Of a DNA stretch of 64,000 nucleotides, positions 1-7,924 are shown in pieces. The notes under the pieces were generated by a model, which worked only from the letters and a program-made list of their open reading frames with translations, did no database searches and was not told where the DNA came from. Every line of letters begins with the position of its first letter. The first letter of the stretch is position 1. The stretch spans positions 1 to 64,000 of the forward strand of contig NZ_JAQVKP010000010.1 of the NCBI RefSeq assembly GCF_028694605.1, read 5' to 3'. The DNA comes from Sulfurimonas sp. Lineage in GTDB: Bacteria; Campylobacterota; Campylobacteria; Campylobacterales; Sulfurimonadaceae. The translations under genes were made by a program, and so were the position numbers.

Positions 1-1
1 T

Positions 2-67
2 AAGAAAATTGAGTTAATTAGAGCAAAACAACGCGAAAGCAAAATGAGAATGATTTTTTTAAAGTAA
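2..67 (+). CDS. C-terminal tail of a gene entering from the left (partial)
   Basis: A reading frame is open from the window edge to a TAA at 65-67 and encodes a short, very basic tail ending MRMIFLK. Its lysine- and isoleucine-rich composition matches the AT-rich genes that follow on the same strand, so it is probably the end of an upstream gene of the same integrative element. Only about 21 codons are visible, so no family can be named. Confidence 0.3.
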   Translation, partial: KKIELIRAKQRESKMRMIFLK

Positions 68-105
68 AAAATAGCTACAATGAAAAATTAGCTACTTGGT
101 GGGGA

Positions 106-288
106 TTGAATTTGCAAGTGGCTCATGAAAAAATAGATTATTACTTTAAAGGTTATAAACATAATTTAGATTATTTTTATAAGTGTGAAAATGAACATAA
201 AGAACAACTAATTAAAGAAATGAATGAACAACTTAAAAACATAACTAATTATATAAATACCTATATAATTAAGGAAGGTGCTAAATGA
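106..288 (+). CDS. Hypothetical small protein of the integrative element
   Basis: This 60-residue protein is rich in lysine, asparagine and tyrosine and has no motif I recognise. The likely start is TTG at 106, preceded by a purine-rich TGGTGGGG stretch; there is no better ATG. The stop overlaps the next start in an ATGA arrangement at 285-288, so it appears translationally coupled to the following gene. Composition is strongly AT-biased like the rest of 1-2782 and unlike the chromosome beyond the tRNA. The role is unknown; it could be a regulatory or accessory protein of the mobile element. Confidence 0.5.
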   Translation: MNLQVAHEKIDYYFKGYKHNLDYFYKCENEHKEQLIKEMNEQLKNITNYINTYIIKEGAK

Positions 289-722
289 AACTAGGATCAA
301 CTTTTTATTTAAACAATGAAAAAGAAATAAATTACTTTAACCTTTTTAAAAAATTGGTTAAAGATGATTATAAAAATATAAGTGAATTTTATAAAGAAAA
401 TATAAAAAAATATGTGATATTAAAATATTTATATAAGATAAAAAAAGAACTAAAAGAAGCTAATAAACTTTTAGAAATTGGTTTAAAAAGTGAAAATATT
501 TATATAAATTTTAAAGATGATGAATTTTTTTTAACTCCAAATAATACTGGTGTTGATGTTGTTTTTAATAAGCCTTTTATTGCTAAATTTGAAAAAAATG
601 AACTTATAGAAATATTTGAAAATTTAGAATATAGAACAAAAGAAGAAATATTTAAAGACATTAAAAAATATATTATAGATTTAAAAGAAATAGATCCTTG
701 GTCTAATTGTATTTGGTGTTAA
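285..722 (+). CDS. Hypothetical protein of the integrative element
   Basis: This 145-residue, highly charged protein is mostly predicted helix in its first 75 residues (repeated K/E-rich segments), followed by a more mixed segment with a short hydrophobic patch and a C-terminus ending in WSNCIWC. I recognise no catalytic motif, signal peptide or membrane segment. It starts with ATG overlapping the preceding stop and is followed within a few bases by the next gene, so it sits inside a tightly packed co-directional cluster of unknown genes leading to the FtsK-like translocase. Function unknown. Confidence 0.55.
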   Translation: MKLGSTFYLNNEKEINYFNLFKKLVKDDYKNISEFYKENIKKYVILKYLYKIKKELKEANKLLEIGLKSENIYINFKDDEFFLTPNNTGVDVVFNKPFIAKFEKNELIEIFENLEYRTKEEIFKDIKKYIIDLKEIDPWSNCIWC

Positions 723-724
723 AA

Positions 725-976
725 ATGATTAAAACTAAAATAATAGAAATGCTTTTAAGAAATTGGCAAAATAAAAAAATAATAATAATGTCAAAAGATT
801 TTAATAATTTTAAAGTTTTAGATGATGTTGAATATTTAAAAGAATATAAAAACAATATAACAAATTTTTATTATTATTTCTATTTTTTAGATTTTGGAAT
901 CATTGAAAGTAAACAATATTCTATATATAGATTTTTAAAAAATAAAGATAAATTATACAAAATAAAGGAGTGCTAA
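725..976 (+). CDS. Hypothetical small protein of the integrative element
   Basis: About 83 residues, starting at ATG 725, two bases after the previous stop; an upstream TTG at 707 would overlap the preceding gene and is less likely. The protein is rich in aromatic residues, with a run of tyrosines and phenylalanines around residues 50-60, and in lysine. No known domain is visible. It belongs to the same compact gene cluster as its neighbours, and its AT-rich codon use suggests it arrived with the element. Confidence 0.45.
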   Translation: MIKTKIIEMLLRNWQNKKIIIMSKDFNNFKVLDDVEYLKEYKNNITNFYYYFYFLDFGIIESKQYSIYRFLKNKDKLYKIKEC

Positions 977-978
977 AA

Positions 979-1308
979 ATGAAAAAAGAACAATTAAAAA
1001 AAATGCTTGAGTATGAAATGTTAGAATTAAATAACATACTAGATTATAAAAATGAAAATATTAAAGATAATTTAGTAGATTATCAAATTAAACATATTAG
1101 AAAAAATATAAAAGAATTTATAGAAAATTGCTTAAAAGAATTATATGAATTATTATTTAATTTAGAAAAAGAAAAAGAAATTATAAGCTTAAAAATGGAC
1201 AAAAAAAGCACTATATTATTATTAAAAATATCAAGATTTGAAACTAAATTTTATGATGAAATAAACAAGATAGAATATAAATATTTGAAAGGTTTGAAAA
1301 ATGAATAA
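979..1308 (+). CDS. Hypothetical coiled-coil protein of the integrative element
   Basis: About 109 residues starting at ATG 979, chosen over an upstream GTG because an AAGGAG ribosome-binding site lies about eight bases before it. The sequence is almost entirely charged heptad-like helix (many K, E, L, I), consistent with a coiled coil. There is no signal peptide or membrane segment. It overlaps the start of the FtsK-like gene by 8 bases, suggesting coupled translation and possibly a partner role, but this is inference; no family is recognised. Confidence 0.5.
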   Translation: MKKEQLKKMLEYEMLELNNILDYKNENIKDNLVDYQIKHIRKNIKEFIENCLKELYELLFNLEKEKEIISLKMDKKSTILLLKISRFETKFYDEINKIEYKYLKGLKNE

Positions 1309-2782
1309 TGCTAATAATAAATTTTATGAATTTGGGAGCTTTGATAAGTTTGGCAATCTTAATTCATCTTATTTTGTGATGATGAATATTTTTATAATCA
1401 TAATAACTTATTTAATAAGTGTAGCAATTTTTAATTATAAGCATTTTTCTTTTGATATTGGAAACATTATAAATAATTATATAACTTATTTTAAGAATGT
1501 TTATTATTTTAGTGATTCTTATGGTCTTTTAAAATACTTAATTGTAGATTATAAATATTTTATATTGTCTTTAATTTTTGTGGTTTTGTATGTTTATAAT
1601 GTTTTTAATGCTAAATTAGAACAAAGAAAACTAGCTAATTTTGGACTAGAAGATTATTATTTATATAAAAAGTTAAAAAATGGTGTTATATATAAAATTT
1701 TACCAAGTGCTATAATGGACTATGAAAAATTTACTAAACAATTTGAAAACATTTTACAAAGAAATAATAAAGGTAGTTGTGAAATATCTAGGGTAGATAA
1801 AACAAGCATTAAGATAATTTATAAAAATAAAATTCCAACCATTGAACAATTAAAAGATTACAAAATACAAGATTATTTAAAAAAAGATAAATTATTTTTA
1901 GGTTTTGAAGGTGGTTTAATTAAAAATATTGAACCTATTTATATAGATTTTAAAGATTTGCCCCATAGTTTTGCTTTATTAGGAACTAGTGGGGGTGGTA
2001 AGTCTAATAGTTTAAATCATATTCTATTTAGTATTTTTTATAATTTTAATAATGTTTATGAACTTAATTTTATAGATTTTAAAGGTGGTGTAGAAAGTGA
2101 ACCATATAATAGATTAGAACAAAAATATAAAACTAATAAAATAAATACTTATACAACATCAAGATTTGAACTTTATAAAAAATTAGTGAAACTAGATATT
2201 ATAAACAAAGCAAGGCAACAATATTTAAAAGATAAAGGTTTAAAGAAATTTAAAACTAATTTTATATATGTTTTCTTTGATGAAATTGCTGAAATTATGG
2301 ACTATACCCCATTTGATAAAGTAGAAAAAGAACAACATAATAGAACAAAAGAAATAATAGAAAGTTTATTTAGAACTGGTAGAAGTCAAGGGTTTAAATT
2401 ATTTTTTGCTACTCAAATTTTTACAACTATTGGAAGTGGTATAAGCAATAGTATTAAAACTAATACTATTTTTAGAATACTCCACAAAACCGAAAGTGAT
2501 GAAGGAATCCATAGTGTGATTGATAAAGAACCATTAGAAGAAAGGGGTATCAATCCTAAAACTTTTGGTGTTGGGGAAGTTGTTATTAAAAATGAAAACC
2601 TTTATTATCATTGTAGATCTTTATATGTGCCTGATGATTTTATAAATTATATACAATTACCTAAAACTAAAATAGATGTAGATTTTGAAAATGAAATTAA
2701 CAAATATATAAATATAATTTTAAAAGAATATAAGCTAAATGATTTAACAAAAGATGATTTATTTCCTAATTTAAAAACTTAA
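1301..2782 (+). CDS. FtsK/SpoIIIE (HerA-type) DNA translocase of the integrative element
   Basis: A 493-residue membrane ATPase likely to pump double-stranded DNA. Two hydrophobic segments lie near residues 25-45 and 85-105. A linker leads to the motor domain with Walker A GTSGGGKS at about residues 228-235, an FKGG motif after strand 2, Walker B VFFDEIAE near residue 324 and an arginine-rich FRTGRSQG segment near 360. Sequence after Walker B (TQIFTT) matches the sensor strand of FtsK and TraB families. It lacks the gamma DNA-reading domain of chromosomal FtsK. Placement beside a tyrosine recombinase and a tRNA suggests it moves the element between cells, as TraB/TraSA-type FtsK proteins do in actinobacterial elements; a plasmid-segregation role is also possible. 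Confidence 0.8.
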   Translation: MNNANNKFYEFGSFDKFGNLNSSYFVMMNIFIIIITYLISVAIFNYKHFSFDIGNIINNYITYFKNVYYFSDSYGLLKYLIVDYKYFILSLIFVVLYVYNVFNAKLEQRKLANFGLEDYYLYKKLKNGVIYKILPSAIMDYEKFTKQFENILQRNNKGSCEISRVDKTSIKIIYKNKIPTIEQLKDYKIQDYLKKDKLFLGFEGGLIKNIEPIYIDFKDLPHSFALLGTSGGGKSNSLNHILFSIFYNFNNVYELNFIDFKGGVESEPYNRLEQKYKTNKINTYTTSRFELYKKLVKLDIINKARQQYLKDKGLKKFKTNFIYVFFDEIAEIMDYTPFDKVEKEQHNRTKEIIESLFRTGRSQGFKLFFATQIFTTIGSGISNSIKTNTIFRILHKTESDEGIHSVIDKEPLEERGINPKTFGVGEVVIKNENLYYHCRSLYVPDDFINYIQLPKTKIDVDFENEINKYINIILKEYKLNDLTKDDLFPNLKT

Positions 2783-4263
2783 ATTAGGTAAATCTAAAAT
2801 ATTATTATTATAATTTTTTTCTATTTCATTAAAAATTATTGAGTTGATACATTCAAAAAGTTTATTCATATTCATTTGATTTTGATTATAAATTTTATGT
2901 GTTATATCTTTGTTTAGACTATGCCCCATTAAATACTTTCTTGTGTGTTCTTCTGCATTGGTTTTAAGAATTTCTTGTGAAAAATTCTTTCTAAAAGAGT
3001 GAAATGATTTCACATCTTCAATAATGATTTTATTAAGTCTCCTATTTAAAATTTTGCCTATTCTATCTACATTATTATCTTGAAAAAATAAGAATTGTCC
3101 TTTATTAATTTTTATTCTATCTTTTAAAATATTTAAAATATGTGGACTTATTGGCATTATTCTATTAGCATTTTTAGTTTTAGTTCCATTTATCTTAATA
3201 ATATTTTCTTTAAAGTCTATATCATCTTTTTTTATGTTTGCTATTTCTCCAATTCTTGCCCCTGTATATAAAGCAACTTTACAAAATTGTTTAAGTTCTT
3301 GTTCTATATCACTATTAAAGATTTTGATTAAATCATCTTTACTATATGCTATTTTTTCACTTTCCTCTTCCTCTAATTTTTTAACTTTTTTAACATGGTT
3401 GGTTTCTATAATTTCATTATAAACAAGGTCATCAAAAAAATTACTTATATTTACTAGGTGGTTATTTATGGTTTTATTGCTTAAAGTTTCAAAATTTTCT
3501 ATCTTATAGATTTTTTCAATTTCATCTATTTTTAACTTTTCAAACTTTTTAAATTTGCTCATGTTTGAAGGTATTATCATTAGATTTTTTTGAAATTGTT
3601 TAAAGAAAGCAAAATTATAAATAGTTTCATTATTGCTAAAAAATTTTAAATAATAAAAACTAGATATATAAGATTTTTTACTAGATATACTCCTTTTTTC
3701 TATATTTATTTTATGGTCTAAATATTTATTAAAATAATTTTCTATGTTGTTATAATTTATCTTTTTATCATCATCTTTTTTTTCCGGGATTGTTGCTATT
3801 TGATTATTAAATAAATTATATTTACTTGCTAGTTGTTTAGCTATCTTTTCTGCCATTTCCTCAGTTTGATTAGGATCATTTGGATCTGGTTTAACATCTA
3901 TTGTATAACTTATAGAATACTTATTATTTAACATATTGCTAATAGTAGTGTTTTTATTATCTTCATTAAATTCATCTCTAAAACTTTTTTTAAGTTCTTC
4001 TTGTGTCATTTTCAAATAGCCTTTTAATTTTTTTAATATCAAGTTTCTTAAATATTTAGCAAATTCAACATCTTTTGTTTTTAAACTATATCTTACAACT
4101 TTATTTTTTATTTTAATACATAAATAATAAGTATTTTCTCTTAAAATTATGTGTCTTAAATTATCCTTAAAAGTTGCCCACTTTTTAAATTTATTGTATT
4201 TTTTATCTTTTTTAAAATATTGAAGCTTTGAAAGTCCATAAAATAGGGGTGTTTGAGTGTTGC
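2771..4263 (-). CDS. Tyrosine recombinase (phage-type integrase)
   Basis: Integrase that would catalyse insertion of the element at the neighbouring tRNA-Ser gene. An N-terminal segment resembling integrase N-domains (YYLCIKIKNKVVRYSLKT) precedes a core-binding region and the catalytic domain with the expected boxes: TGARIGEI (first Arg), the lysine strand, HSFRKNF (His-x-x-Arg) and LMGHSLNKDITHKIYNQ (His and nucleophile Tyr). The start codon is unresolved. The frame is open through the tRNA to 4366, the first internal ATG (4009) would remove the conserved N-domain, and no in-frame ATG, GTG or TTG lies between; I draw it to the tRNA edge. Its last 12 bases overlap the convergent translocase gene. 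Composition is very AT-rich. Confidence 0.8.
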
Positions 4264-4351
4264 TGGTGGACAGTGAGGGATTTGAACCCTCGGTAGCTTT
4301 CGCTACGGCCGCGTTCCAGGCGACTAGATTAAACCACTCTCCCAACTGTCC
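4264..4351 (-). tRNA. tRNA-Ser (anticodon GGA)
   Basis: Read on the minus strand the 88-nt gene has a paired acceptor (GGACAGT with ACTGTCC), a D-arm, an anticodon loop CTGGAAC giving anticodon GGA, a long class II variable arm with a GAAA loop, a T-arm with GGTTCAAATCC, and an encoded CCA end. The anticodon reads serine UCC/UCU. The CCA end directly borders the integrase gene on the same strand, the usual arrangement for an integrative element that uses the 3' end of a tRNA gene as attachment site and leaves the tRNA intact. Confidence 0.95.
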
Positions 4352-4398
4352 TTTGTGGGAATGCAATTGTACATTCTCAAGGCTTAAGGAGACCTACA

Positions 4399-4440
4399 TT
4401 AATACCAAACTCAACTAACTATTGCTGAGTTTGGTATTAA
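4399..4440. repeat. 15-bp perfect inverted repeat, probable bidirectional terminator
   Basis: Arms at 4399-4413 and 4426-4440 pair perfectly around a 12-nt loop. The stem includes the last codons and the stop of the HTH gene, so it can end that transcript. The left arm and the loop share about 19 of 21 bases with one half of another hairpin at 10489-10540, which suggests a dispersed palindromic element rather than a plain terminator. Confidence 0.7.
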
Positions 4441-5073
4441 GTCGCTATAATCGTATTTTTGCAAGTCTATGTAGTATTTTTTGCCTATGGTTATGATTCT
4501 TGCATCATCTTTTGCGGTGCGCTCAAACTTCTCTTTGATTCTGTTACGCTCTTTTTTTGGAAAATCTCTGCTTTTAAGATATTTGTTTACAGAGACAAGT
4601 CTTCTTTCCTCTTGGGTTACGGTTTCTTGTGCCTCTTCTTGCGCTATCTCGCCCTCAATCATCTCTTGCGGGGTGTGAAGCATAAGTTTTGTGGAGATGG
4701 CATTGATGATATTTTTGAGCTGTTCATCTTTTTCTTTGTAGATACGTTCAATTTTTAAACGCTCTTCTATGAGCATCTGCTCTTTTTGGTCTCTTAGGCT
4801 TCTTGTCTCTTTTTCCAGTGTTTCTACTTTTTGCTGAAGCTTTTCGTTTTGCTCTTCTAAAAACTTATAGTAGCGCTCAGGAGTTTGATGGAGATTTTTT
4901 TGTGCGGTTGTTTTTTTTGTCAAAGGCTGCACGCTTTCCTCTTTCTCAATGATAACAAGTTTAACACCATCTTCGACTACACTTTGCAGAGAGCCTCTTC
5001 TTATACGGTTGTGAATCGCCTCTTTGGAGACCCCTAGAAGCTGTGCTGCATCATGGATGGTTACCTTTGACAT
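4411..5073 (-). CDS. MerR-like helix-turn-helix protein with long coiled coil
   Basis: A 220-residue protein. Residues 1-45 (TIHDAAQLLGVSKEAIHNRIRRG) form a helix-turn-helix of the excisionase/MerR type that would bind DNA. Residues 70-125 are heptad-rich coiled coil, followed by a charged segment and a C-terminal region ending KYYIDLQKYDYSDL. No ligand domain of classical MerR regulators is visible. It lies 9 nt upstream of yajQ on the same strand, with a strong hairpin over its stop codon. It may be a structural DNA-binding protein or a regulator; its target is unknown. It sits on the chromosomal side of the tRNA and its codon use is not that of the element. Confidence 0.65.
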   Translation of the reverse strand: MSKVTIHDAAQLLGVSKEAIHNRIRRGSLQSVVEDGVKLVIIEKEESVQPLTKKTTAQKNLHQTPERYYKFLEEQNEKLQQKVETLEKETRSLRDQKEQMLIEERLKIERIYKEKDEQLKNIINAISTKLMLHTPQEMIEGEIAQEEAQETVTQEERRLVSVNKYLKSRDFPKKERNRIKEKFERTAKDDARIITIGKKYYIDLQKYDYSDLIPNSAIVS

Positions 5074-5082
5074 AGCTGCTCC

Positions 5083-5580
5083 CTATCTCATATTTTCAAA
5101 AACGAGCGGTGCTTCCCACTCCATGGAGCGGATAGTTGCGATAACTTTTTGCAAATCATCTATCTTTGCTCCTTTTACTCTGATAGAGTCGCCCTCTATC
5201 TGTGCGGTTACTTTGAGTTTGAGATTTTTTATCTCGGCGACTATCTTTTTTGCCTCTTTGGACTCTATGTAGTCCACCACTTTGTATGTCGCTTTTCTTG
5301 TGTTGCCGCTTGCATTTTCAACTCTGACTTCCTCTAAAACCTTGGAAGAGAGATTTTGTTTGAGGAGTTTTGTTATAACGATATCTTTGAGTGCATCTAG
5401 TTTGTTATCGCTTGATGCGACTAACACCAGCTGTTTCTCTTTCTCTTTAAAGTCAATTTCATAGGTCGTACCCTTAAAATCATAACGGTTCGCAACCTCT
5501 TTATCCACCGAATTTATCGCATTTTTAAAACTCTGCATATCAATCTTTGCGCTTATATCAAATGAGTACTCTTTTGCCAT
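5083..5580 (-). CDS. YajQ family nucleotide-binding protein
   Basis: A 165-residue cytoplasmic protein matching the YajQ family along its whole length: the N-terminal SFDISAKIDMQSFKNAINSV, then RYDFKGT, and a C-terminal repeat of the same fold (KLKVTAQIEGDSIRVKGAKIDDLQ). Members bind RNA or cyclic di-GMP; in Xanthomonas a YajQ protein acts as a c-di-GMP effector. The start at ATG 5580 gives the usual family length. It is the middle gene between the SdhA/B-like pair and the HTH gene on the same strand. Family membership is secure; ligand here is inferred. Confidence 0.9.
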   Translation of the reverse strand: MAKEYSFDISAKIDMQSFKNAINSVDKEVANRYDFKGTTYEIDFKEKEKQLVLVASSDNKLDALKDIVITKLLKQNLSSKVLEEVRVENASGNTRKATYKVVDYIESKEAKKIVAEIKNLKLKVTAQIEGDSIRVKGAKIDDLQKVIATIRSMEWEAPLVFENMR

Positions 5581-5631
5581 TTTTAAACCTTTTATAAAAT
5601 AGTCCTAGATTATAACATAAAACGATGTTAG

Positions 5632-6330
5632 TTAAAACTGTGGACTTCCGTCAAACCCAAAACCGCCCCCAAAATTGGCAAAACTTGGGTCCGTATAGCC
5701 CAGCATAGCACTTCTTGCCCTTAGTTTTTCGATATCTGCTTTGCTTGAGATACCTTGCGGGCAGACGAGTGTGCATGCGTTGCAAAGGGTGCAGTCCCAA
5801 ACACCGTTTGCCTGGATGGTCTCTATCTTCTCTTTTGGATTTTGCTCTCTTTTGTCACTCACATAACGCAAAACTCTTGTTAATGCAAACGGTCCTAAAA
5901 ACTCCTCATTCACTGCATAAACAGGACATGTGCTATAGCATGAACCACAAAGAATGCAGTCACTTTGAAGAGCGTTTCTCTGCTCATCTTCCACGCTAAG
6001 CACTACTTCTTTCACAAAAGAGCTTTGATACGCTTTTGCTTTTGCATTCATGGCGTATGCTTTATCCATAGAAACTACCAAATCACGCAGGATTGGGACA
6101 TTGTGCAGAGGCTCTACCACATCGCCGTTTTGAAGTTGATGGGCGCATGCCAAAACCTCTTTACCGTTAACCCGCACCGCACAGCTTCCGCACACACTGC
6201 TTCTGCATCCGCTGCTATACGCCAGTGTTGCATCCACATTTGCTTTTAGCCGGTTAAGCGCTTCTAAAAGCGTTCTTCCCTCTGCCTCGTAAGAGACAAA
6301 CCCATCTTTTCTCTTTATGCTAATTTTCAT
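5632..6330 (-). CDS. Succinate dehydrogenase/fumarate reductase-type iron-sulfur subunit
   Basis: A 232-residue electron-transfer subunit. The N-terminal plant-ferredoxin domain has the [2Fe-2S] ligands in CRSSVCGSC plus a later Cys. The C-terminal domain carries CILCGSCYSTCP and CTLCNACTLVCP. The second motif has an extra cysteine compared with the CxxxxxC spacing that binds [3Fe-4S] in classical SdhB/FrdB, so two [4Fe-4S] clusters are expected, as in the non-classical type E enzymes. It overlaps the flavoprotein gene by 11 bases, so the two subunits are co-translated. No gene for a membrane anchor (SdhC/D) or a cysteine-rich CCG subunit (SdhE) follows; the next gene is yajQ. Confidence 0.85.
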   Translation of the reverse strand: MKISIKRKDGFVSYEAEGRTLLEALNRLKANVDATLAYSSGCRSSVCGSCAVRVNGKEVLACAHQLQNGDVVEPLHNVPILRDLVVSMDKAYAMNAKAKAYQSSFVKEVVLSVEDEQRNALQSDCILCGSCYSTCPVYAVNEEFLGPFALTRVLRYVSDKREQNPKEKIETIQANGVWDCTLCNACTLVCPQGISSKADIEKLRARSAMLGYTDPSFANFGGGFGFDGSPQF

Positions 6331-7924
6331 AACGCACCGCCATATCCCTGCCTATAAGAGAGTTTGCCTCAAATCTCGCTTCGCTTTGCGGTGCATCTGC
6401 TCTAAAATGCGCCCCTCTGCTCTCTTTTCTCTCAATGGCACAAAGCAAAATCAGCTCACCAAGCTCTAACATGTTTGCAAACTCCAAAAACTCCGTTAGG
6501 TTTGTGTTATACTCTTTTGCTTTATCGCTAACGCCCATTTTCGAGAGTGTGCTTCGCATCTCTTTTACTTTTGCGACTGCCTCTTGCATAGAGTTCTCTT
6601 CTCGCAAAATACCTACATTTTTGTAAAAAATCTCGCCTAGTTCTTGGTGTGCTTGGTAAAAATTTATCTCGTTTGTGTAGTTTTTTATCTCTTTGATTTT
6701 CGCTTCCCAAAACTCTTTTTTGCTCAATGCGCTTACAAGCGGCAATGACTCTTTTATATGACGTACCGCACTCTCCCCTGCTTTTTTTCCAAAAACAACG
6801 ACTTCTAAAAGCGAATTGCCGCCAAGTCTGTTTGCGCCATGAACTCTCTGGTTTGCACACTCTCCAACTGCAAAAAGTCCCGCTATGTTTGTTTGTGCAT
6901 CTGCATCCACCAAGATACCGCCCATGGTGTAGTGCGCTGAGGGTTTGATGGGGATGAGTTCACGGATGGGGTCAACACCCTCGTAAAGTTTTGCAAGTTT
7001 TGCCTCTTGCGGCAGTTCATGCTCTATGAACTCTTTGCCCAAATGTCGGATGTCCAAAAAGACGCTCTCGCCTTTAAGCATCTCTTTATGGATGGCACGT
7101 GCGACCTCATCACGTGGTGCCAGTTCGTTTGTAAAACGCTCCCCTTTTGAGTTGAGCAGATACCCGCCTGCGCCTCTGGCACTCTCTGAGATAAGAATGG
7201 AGGAGTTTTTCATCGCTGTAGGATGAAACTGTATGAACTCCAAGTCACTCAGCACCGCCCCCGCTCTAAATGCCGCCGCTACTCCGTCTCCGCTTGATGC
7301 AACGGAATTTGTGGAGTGGTTATGAAAAACTCTGCTGTATCCGCCCGTTGCAAGGATAACGCTTTGGGCTTCATGCACTTCTGCTTCGCCGCTTCTTTTG
7401 TTTAAAACCAAAACACCGCTAACGTATGTTTTGTTAGCATCACTGTGTGTTAACAAATCCAAAAGATAACGCTCGTTTAAAAACTCTATCCCCACTGCCA
7501 CACATCTGTCATAAAGCGTGTGAAGTATTTTCAACCCTGTATAGTCTTGTGCATAACAAGCTCTGGCGGCGGATGCGCCTCCGAGTTTTCGCTGTGCGAT
7601 TTTGCCATCTTTGGTTCTGCTAAAAGGTACGCCTATGCCATCAAGCCATGCAAGCACCTCCGGTGCGCTTTGGCACAAAAACTCCACCGCACTCTCTTTT
7701 GCCATACCGTGCGCCGATTTGAGCGTGTTTTGAATATGTGCTTCAACGCTGTCTTCCCCTGCATTGCCCAAAGCGGCATTGATGCCCCCTTGCGCCATGC
7801 ATGTTTGGCTTCTTGTGGGGTACTCTTTGGTAATCACCGTTACCTTTGCCCCTCTTTCATGTGCGCTAAGTGCGGCGACAAGCCCCGCTCCGCCTGCTCC
7901 TACTACGATAACACTATTTTTCAT
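6320..7924 (-). CDS. Succinate dehydrogenase/fumarate reductase-type flavoprotein subunit
   Basis: A 534-residue FAD protein with the N-terminal dinucleotide motif GAGGAGL, the substrate-site motif FHPTAM, RGAGGYLLN, the arginine helix ELAPRDEVARA, HYTMGGI and the C-terminal FAD motif GANRLGGNSLLE. These support reversible succinate/fumarate chemistry. At the position where classical SdhA/FrdA have the histidine that covalently binds FAD (RSHT), this protein has RSQT, so the flavin is probably non-covalent. There is no Tat signal, so it should face the cytoplasm. It overlaps the iron-sulfur gene downstream and the sensor kinase gene upstream by 11 bases each. It could instead be an L-aspartate-oxidase-like enzyme, but the paired Fe-S gene favours an SDH/FRD-like role. 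Confidence 0.85.
   Translation of the reverse strand: MKNSVIVVGAGGAGLVAALSAHERGAKVTVITKEYPTRSQTCMAQGGINAALGNAGEDSVEAHIQNTLKSAHGMAKESAVEFLCQSAPEVLAWLDGIGVPFSRTKDGKIAQRKLGGASAARACYAQDYTGLKILHTLYDRCVAVGIEFLNERYLLDLLTHSDANKTYVSGVLVLNKRSGEAEVHEAQSVILATGGYSRVFHNHSTNSVASSGDGVAAAFRAGAVLSDLEFIQFHPTAMKNSSILISESARGAGGYLLNSKGERFTNELAPRDEVARAIHKEMLKGESVFLDIRHLGKEFIEHELPQEAKLAKLYEGVDPIRELIPIKPSAHYTMGGILVDADAQTNIAGLFAVGECANQRVHGANRLGGNSLLEVVVFGKKAGESAVRHIKESLPLVSALSKKEFWEAKIKEIKNYTNEINFYQAHQELGEIFYKNVGILREENSMQEAVAKVKEMRSTLSKMGVSDKAKEYNTNLTEFLEFANMLELGELILLCAIERKESRGAHFRADAPQSEARFEANSLIGRDMAVRYEN

Follow-up and report, generated by a model that had tools for sequence, protein, structure and literature searches.

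A low-GC element split by an insertion sequence

The 64,000-nucleotide stretch of Sulfurimonas sp. DNA analysed here (the window; contig NZ_JAQVKP010000010.1, hereafter C18) begins inside an integrative element that carries genes for a membrane DNA pump and a tyrosine integrase and ends in a tRNA-Ser gene. The pump gene (1301..2782, + strand) encodes a 493-aa TcpA-like protein with two N-terminal transmembrane (TM) segments, followed by the alpha and motor parts of an FtsK/HerA ATPase. It scored over cut-off against both FtsK_SpoIIIE (PF01580; 31.2 bits, cut-off 24) and DUF87/HerA (25.8 bits, cut-off 23.2). Convergent with it lies the integrase gene (2771..4258, - strand, within an open frame to 4366, the start codon being provisional), whose product matched PF00589 (2.8e-18) and a PHROG integrase family (1.7e-36). 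The integration target, tRNA-Ser(GGA), occupies 4264..4351 (- strand; Rfam tRNA, 50.6 bits). Five relatives of the genus keep this gene and its upstream neighbours but vary on the downstream side; one of them, G286, has a different integrase there. GC content is 0.17-0.22 as far as ~4250 and climbs to 0.40-0.49 beyond that point. The original prediction had named a tRNA-Ser, a tyrosine recombinase and an FtsK/HerA translocase in DNA of very low GC, with only the right end of an element in view, and in all of this it was correct.

The window starts at the first base of C18, one of 25 contigs of a 2.15-Mb genome. Bases 1..124 make up one end of a multicopy insertion sequence (IS), and the same 124-127 bp terminate seven other contigs. 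Insertion of this IS in the element accounts for the break in the assembly. The other IS terminus is present on eleven contig ends, among which contig C17 runs on at 15-21% GC. C17 and C18 carry the same 5-bp target duplication (ATGAA), none of the other pairings matching over as many bases, and joining their flanks restores a 62-aa open reading frame (ORF) whose downstream part lies at 125..288 (+ strand). The low-GC part of C17, equal in GC to the C18 half, is the missing half of the element. It ends at an exact copy of the 17-bp tRNA-Ser 3′ end, TGGTGGACAGTGAGGGA (attL, C17 (L009):3738-3722; attR, 4264..4280), which is the direct repeat to the left that had been proposed as a check.

Inside both ends we found the octamer GTTGCCCA in the same orientation, once in the window (4173..4180, + strand; element position 7656 of 7763) and three times in 11-bp steps at the C17 end (positions 93, 104 and 115), as expected for arm-type sites of the integrase. 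Because the C17 join, the 17-bp att repeat, the arm-type sites and the conserved tRNA-Ser context in relatives all agree, we conclude from the sequence that the integrative element is complete at 7,763 bp without the IS (19% GC; host 40-45%).

Read end to end, the element encodes Rep, a 173-aa protein resembling a single-stranded DNA-binding protein (SSB), ORFs of 75, 53, 62, 145, 89 and 112 aa, the pump and, on the opposite strand, the integrase. Rep (528 aa; element 919-2505) and the SSB-like protein (element 2681-3202) are on the C17 half; the pump gene covers element 4784-6265. The 75-aa protein has a signal peptide and three repeats, and the 53-aa protein a TM segment. On the window's + strand, the 145-aa protein (285..722) gave no confident family in domain and profile searches; the 89-aa ORF (83 aa from its ATG, 725..976) and the 112-aa ORF (109 aa from its ATG, 979..1308) have no assigned function. 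No type IV secretion system (T4SS) or phage structural family was matched in the complete element with Pfam and PHROG. An integrative and conjugative element (ICE) was ruled out on the first count, and a tailed or PM2-like prophage on the second. The original prediction had called for a search to the left for relaxase, T4SS or phage structural genes. The C17 half contributed an HUH-type Rep and the SSB-like gene and has neither a T4SS nor virion genes, so the prediction survived on this point.

The IS itself (ends ...TGCAAGTGGCTC; about 8-11 copies) is seen at window 1-124 and at eighteen other contig ends; only its ends are assembled, and its target duplications are mostly 4-bp. Directly beside attL, L009:3990-5122 holds a HATPase-like and STAS-like (DUF4325) gene pair with weak DrmA-like PADLOC matches.

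Related elements in the phylum

We searched 397 genomes of the phylum with a profile of the pump. A group of matches with E-values of 1e-47 or better stood apart from chromosomal FtsK, which scored 1e-20 to 1e-29. The group comprised 13 places, spread over 12 genomes from four families, with the best relatives at 1e-73 to 1e-180. Ten loci were readable as elements (our own, L078, L079, L084, L088, L090, L092, L093, L134 and L135), and L133 and L136 look degraded. Rep, SSB-like gene and pump are clustered in all ten resolved loci, with an integrase nearby, and the R, R and H columns are retained in 10/10 sister integrases. The SSB-like gene encodes 84-95 aa in the sisters (the L090 frame was recovered by translation).

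Seven elements are closed by exact att repeats that end no more than 3 bases from a tRNA or tmRNA 3′ end: our own (17 bp, tRNA-Ser, 7,763 bp), L079 (18 bp, tmRNA, 6.0 kb), L088 (24 bp, tRNA-Gly, 9.6 kb), L092 (20 bp, tRNA-Leu, 7.5 kb), L093 (17 bp, tRNA-Met, 9.0 kb), L134 (20 bp, tRNA-Leu, 6.5 kb) and L135 (22 bp, tRNA-Ser, 11.5 kb). In the four of these seven that were checked, the repeats exceed every match in shuffled loci. L078, at a tmRNA, has a 12-bp repeat only, no longer than in shuffles, and none was found for L090 and L133; the search at a tRNA did not cover L084. From these sequences, the Sulfurimonas element belongs to a family whose members in this phylum measure 6-11.5 kb.

The minimal members L079 and L134 consist essentially of integrase, pump, SSB-like gene and Rep, with one 51- or 69-aa ORF; having no spare gene, they could not encode a capsid. 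L079 has 22% GC in a 39-43% host. The recent arrival that the original prediction read from low GC is plausible for our element, but since L079 is poor in GC too, we regard low GC as a trait of some members and not as a clock. The tmRNA tags of the relatives read ANNT.Y.PAYA, as in epsilonproteobacterial tags, and are compatible with a host of the Campylobacterota, as the original prediction has it. Peptide-pattern scans of genome-contig and viral-contig collections with single proteins returned no relatives, and a profile scan of the genome-contig collection gave weak FtsK-like matches only, among them L094 and L095, which are chromosomal FtsK. No description of such elements in Campylobacterota was found in the open-licence literature.

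Several loci carry further genes. Restriction-modification genes lie inside two elements (L135:1979-6883 and L078:13728-14750). In L090 (genome G031), whose left boundary was not found, the Rep-SSB-FtsK module is adjoined by part of a type III methyltransferase and by an operon (2765-7673) resembling a Type II cyclic oligonucleotide-based antiphage signalling system (CBASS), with JAB, E1-E2, cyclase and phospholipase genes and strong PADLOC matches. Small lipoproteins with a common pattern (K..GG... G.G..IYGLGA-like) are encoded at L078:11201-11434, L092:11880-12236 and L093:14198-14557, in elements of two families, and possibly have an exclusion or envelope role.

Pump and replication proteins

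Among solved structures, the closest relative of the pump in a profile search was TcpA of pCW3 (6o1w; E 1e-25), followed by FtsK (2e-21). A model of the pump gave the same answer: the top Foldseek match was TcpA (4e-18), and VIA-align placed TcpA at Z 26 (250 residues at 2.5 A) and FtsK at Z 24 or less. Scored against the pump profile, clostridial plasmid TcpA reached 91 bits, chromosomal FtsK 90-100 bits and TraB of pIJ101 37 bits; four Zot proteins gave no match. The pump ends ~35 residues past the motor fold, leaving no room for a C-terminal winged helix of the TraB type. By sequence and model, it thus appears closest to TcpA-type proteins, its nearest solved relative being the pCW3 conjugation coupling protein rather than TraB or Zot. 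TcpA of pCW3 and ConQ of ICEBs1-Tn916 likewise combine N-terminal TM segments with an FtsK-like motor, but are encoded with a full T4SS on the same element, which is lacking here.

A phage search with the pump returned only FtsK-like proteins, 24-30% identical, encoded by phages of Bacillus and Staphylococcus. We ruled out a defence-type HerA: PADLOC matches to mad8/HerA were weak, and the pump accompanies Rep and the SSB-like gene without a nuclease partner. Elsewhere, L083:970-6171 (G186) encodes a 1733-aa protein with an element-type pump domain close to its C-terminus.

Alignment of eight Reps showed invariant E249, H251, H257 and H259, the E-x-H..H-x-H motif of HUH nucleases, and invariant Y301 and Y305 (Y-x3-Y). 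The sister Reps L078 and L079 scored above the Phage_GPA (PF05840) cut-off. Structural comparison of the Rep model placed HUH nucleases among the top matches, though weakly (best VIA-align Z 8.5), for which reason the assignment leans on the motifs and on PF05840 in the sisters. These indicate that Rep is probably an HUH replication initiator of the phage GPA/G2P-like kind. The corresponding genes of L134 and L135 are more distant, and we tentatively call them Rep from their position and a weak PF23343 match in L135 (0.027; no match in L134). Plasmid searches found nothing with our own Rep, and distant replication endonucleases only with a sister Rep. At L085:7688-11728 (G251, same genus), a 1346-aa protein apparently fuses a UvrD-type helicase to a Rep relative, with an FtsK-like gene nearby.

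From a one-sequence search (i-E 0.004 and 1e-4), the 173-aa protein looks like a doubled version of the SSB-like protein of the sisters. It is a probable DNA-binding protein, and its position beside Rep suggests an SSB function.

Proposed transfer of the element

We consider it reasonably probable that this is a non-canonical element resembling integrative and mobilizable elements (IMEs), with a relaxase of the rolling-circle replication (RCR) type and a TcpA-type pump, mobilised with help from an outer channel encoded elsewhere. Like an IME, the element has its own integrase and att sites and a TcpA-type coupling protein. In streptococcal IMEs, TcpA occurs together with RCR-type relaxases (PMC5357655, PMC5704250), and this precedent leads us to favour helper-dependent mobilisation. 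Those non-canonical IMEs are also compact, with a tyrosine integrase, an RCR-initiator-like relaxase, TcpA and no mating pore; one of their relaxase classes, PHA00330, is of phage Rep type, and tRNAs are among their targets (PMC5357655, PMC5704250). The elements described here differ from them in belonging to a Gram-negative phylum, in a Rep of the GPA/G2P kind, in the SSB-like gene between Rep and pump, in an integrase convergent with the pump and in hosts without a recognised helper T4SS.

By this mechanism, the integrase would excise a circle from the chromosome, and Rep would nick this circle at an origin close to rep, initiate rolling-circle replication and remain attached to the DNA in the manner of a relaxase. 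The SSB-like protein would cover the displaced strand, and a TcpA-like ring in the inner membrane would push the DNA outward. In the recipient, the integrase would insert the element at a tRNA or tmRNA 3′ end. No mating-pore gene was detected in the element by domain and profile searches, nor in the sister loci. Since no element gene spans the outer membrane and the hosts are without VirB4, the outer part of the channel would most likely be supplied by a helper that is present only transiently, or by a different channel of the envelope.

Several observations weigh against helper-dependent mobilisation. VirB4 (PF03135) is absent in 10/10 host genomes, so that a resident helper is not evident, and the helper may be transient; VirB4 occurs in 37/150 genomes of the phylum, mostly in two families (f2 and f3) in which no element was found. 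Our own Rep is divergent, matching PF23343 at 0.002, under the cut-off. Only short repeats, TTTAAACCA (three copies) and TTGTTCAAATGTA (two copies), lie upstream of rep in the candidate origin region. The SSB-like protein matched none of the SSB families, its assignment coming from position and weak profile scores. A VirD4 family protein is encoded in our own genome (C25) and in G056; the former, of the VirD4 coupling-protein type, lies near a 1256-aa gene in a second, separate low-GC island of the host (L054, G000:C25, 819-8352) that lacks VirB4.

The original prediction had likened the locus to actinomycete integrative and conjugative elements (AICEs), and a self-sufficient Gram-negative element of this type would move DNA from cell to cell with its single pump, requiring neither its own T4SS nor a helper's. 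AICEs are defined by an integrase of PF00589 or PF07508, an RCR or Prim-Pol Rep and a PF01580 Tra in an att-bounded element (PMC3218068). With the C17 half in place, a rolling-circle Rep, recognised by HUH motifs and sister PF05840, joins the PF00589 and PF01580 matches over cut-off and the att repeats, so that the same three core modules are present here. AICEs and pIJ101-type plasmids (TraB; PMC3218068) also share with our element the tRNA 3′ ends and the lack of a T4SS. Moreover, VirB4 is missing from the hosts and PF12846 never scored over cut-off, two minimal members lack any other large gene, and the pump matches FtsK double-strand translocases almost as well as TcpA. The parts list of the AICE comparison is thereby upheld, but not the kinship: AICE Reps are RepSA, RepAM or Prim-Pol, and the Rep here is probably of the Phage_GPA/G2P-like kind (by the sisters, weakly in our own copy), and the pump is nearer TcpA than TraB, without the clt-reading C-terminal winged helix of the TraB lineage. 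There are no spd genes, and the host is not an actinomycete. Known single-pump transfer is limited to multicellular actinobacteria (PMC5704250); here a Gram-negative outer membrane is in the way, no conserved element gene would serve to cross it, and double-stranded DNA transfer is hard to picture across such an envelope. We hold self-sufficient transfer to be unlikely. If it did occur, an element as small as 6 kb would pass between diderm cells with an integrase, a Rep, an SSB-like protein and a TcpA-like pump.

An inovirus-like provirus or satellite is, in our judgement, improbable. Rep, SSB-like protein and ATPase would then be analogues of G2P, G5P and G1P, with small TM ORFs as coats or a helper inovirus packaging the DNA. 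Rep does belong to a superfamily that is used by inoviruses in this phylum (L080, L082, L087, L089, L091, L101 and L102), which resemble our elements in their small integrated genomes; TM ORFs of 53 and 51 aa occur in our own element and L079; and pI likewise belongs to FtsK-HerA (PMC6813254). A genuine pI, however, requires Zot as its closest Pfam domain (PMC6813254), and that of the pump is FtsK_SpoIIIE. The inoviruses of the phylum have a Zot-type pI and a secretin-like gene, neither of which occurs in these elements; a clear Zot gene was found in 1/10 hosts. The small TM ORFs are not conserved, and none lies between Rep and FtsK in L084, L092 and L093. In a tree of eight element Reps and seven Zot-linked relatives from phylum genomes and IMG/VR, a 100/100 branch separated the two sets, and each set had a pump type of its own, although the branches of our own Rep and L079 are long. 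All seven Zot-linked loci encode a Zot-type ATPase with an N-terminal P-loop and a TM segment near residue 210. We rejected the inovirus reading on the absence of Zot and the separate Rep clades. As an observation in its own right, L080, L082, L087, L089 and L091 are inovirus-like proviruses with a Zot-type ATPase, a secretin-like gene and an HUH Rep.

Finally, the pump might act within the cell, in segregation of the circle or membrane anchoring of its replication, and a replicating integrative element would then spread through natural transformation or with phages. Pumps of the FtsK type serve in DNA segregation as well, natural competence is possible in some hosts, and there are no transfer genes besides the pump. 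Yet its nearest relative is a conjugation coupling protein, and its association with Rep and the SSB-like gene is kept in ten loci with diverse integrases, parallel to mobilization modules; we hold an intracellular role to be improbable.

TcpA-type coupling proteins have been reported as confined to Firmicutes (PMC5357655), and here a TcpA-like pump is found in a Gram-negative phylum. The family raises a sharp question, by what means DNA crosses the outer membrane in hosts without VirB4. Surveys based on T4SS or relaxases overlook such elements. Since restriction-modification genes are present in several of them, and a CBASS operon lies next to the module of one, defence genes may be spread by them as well.

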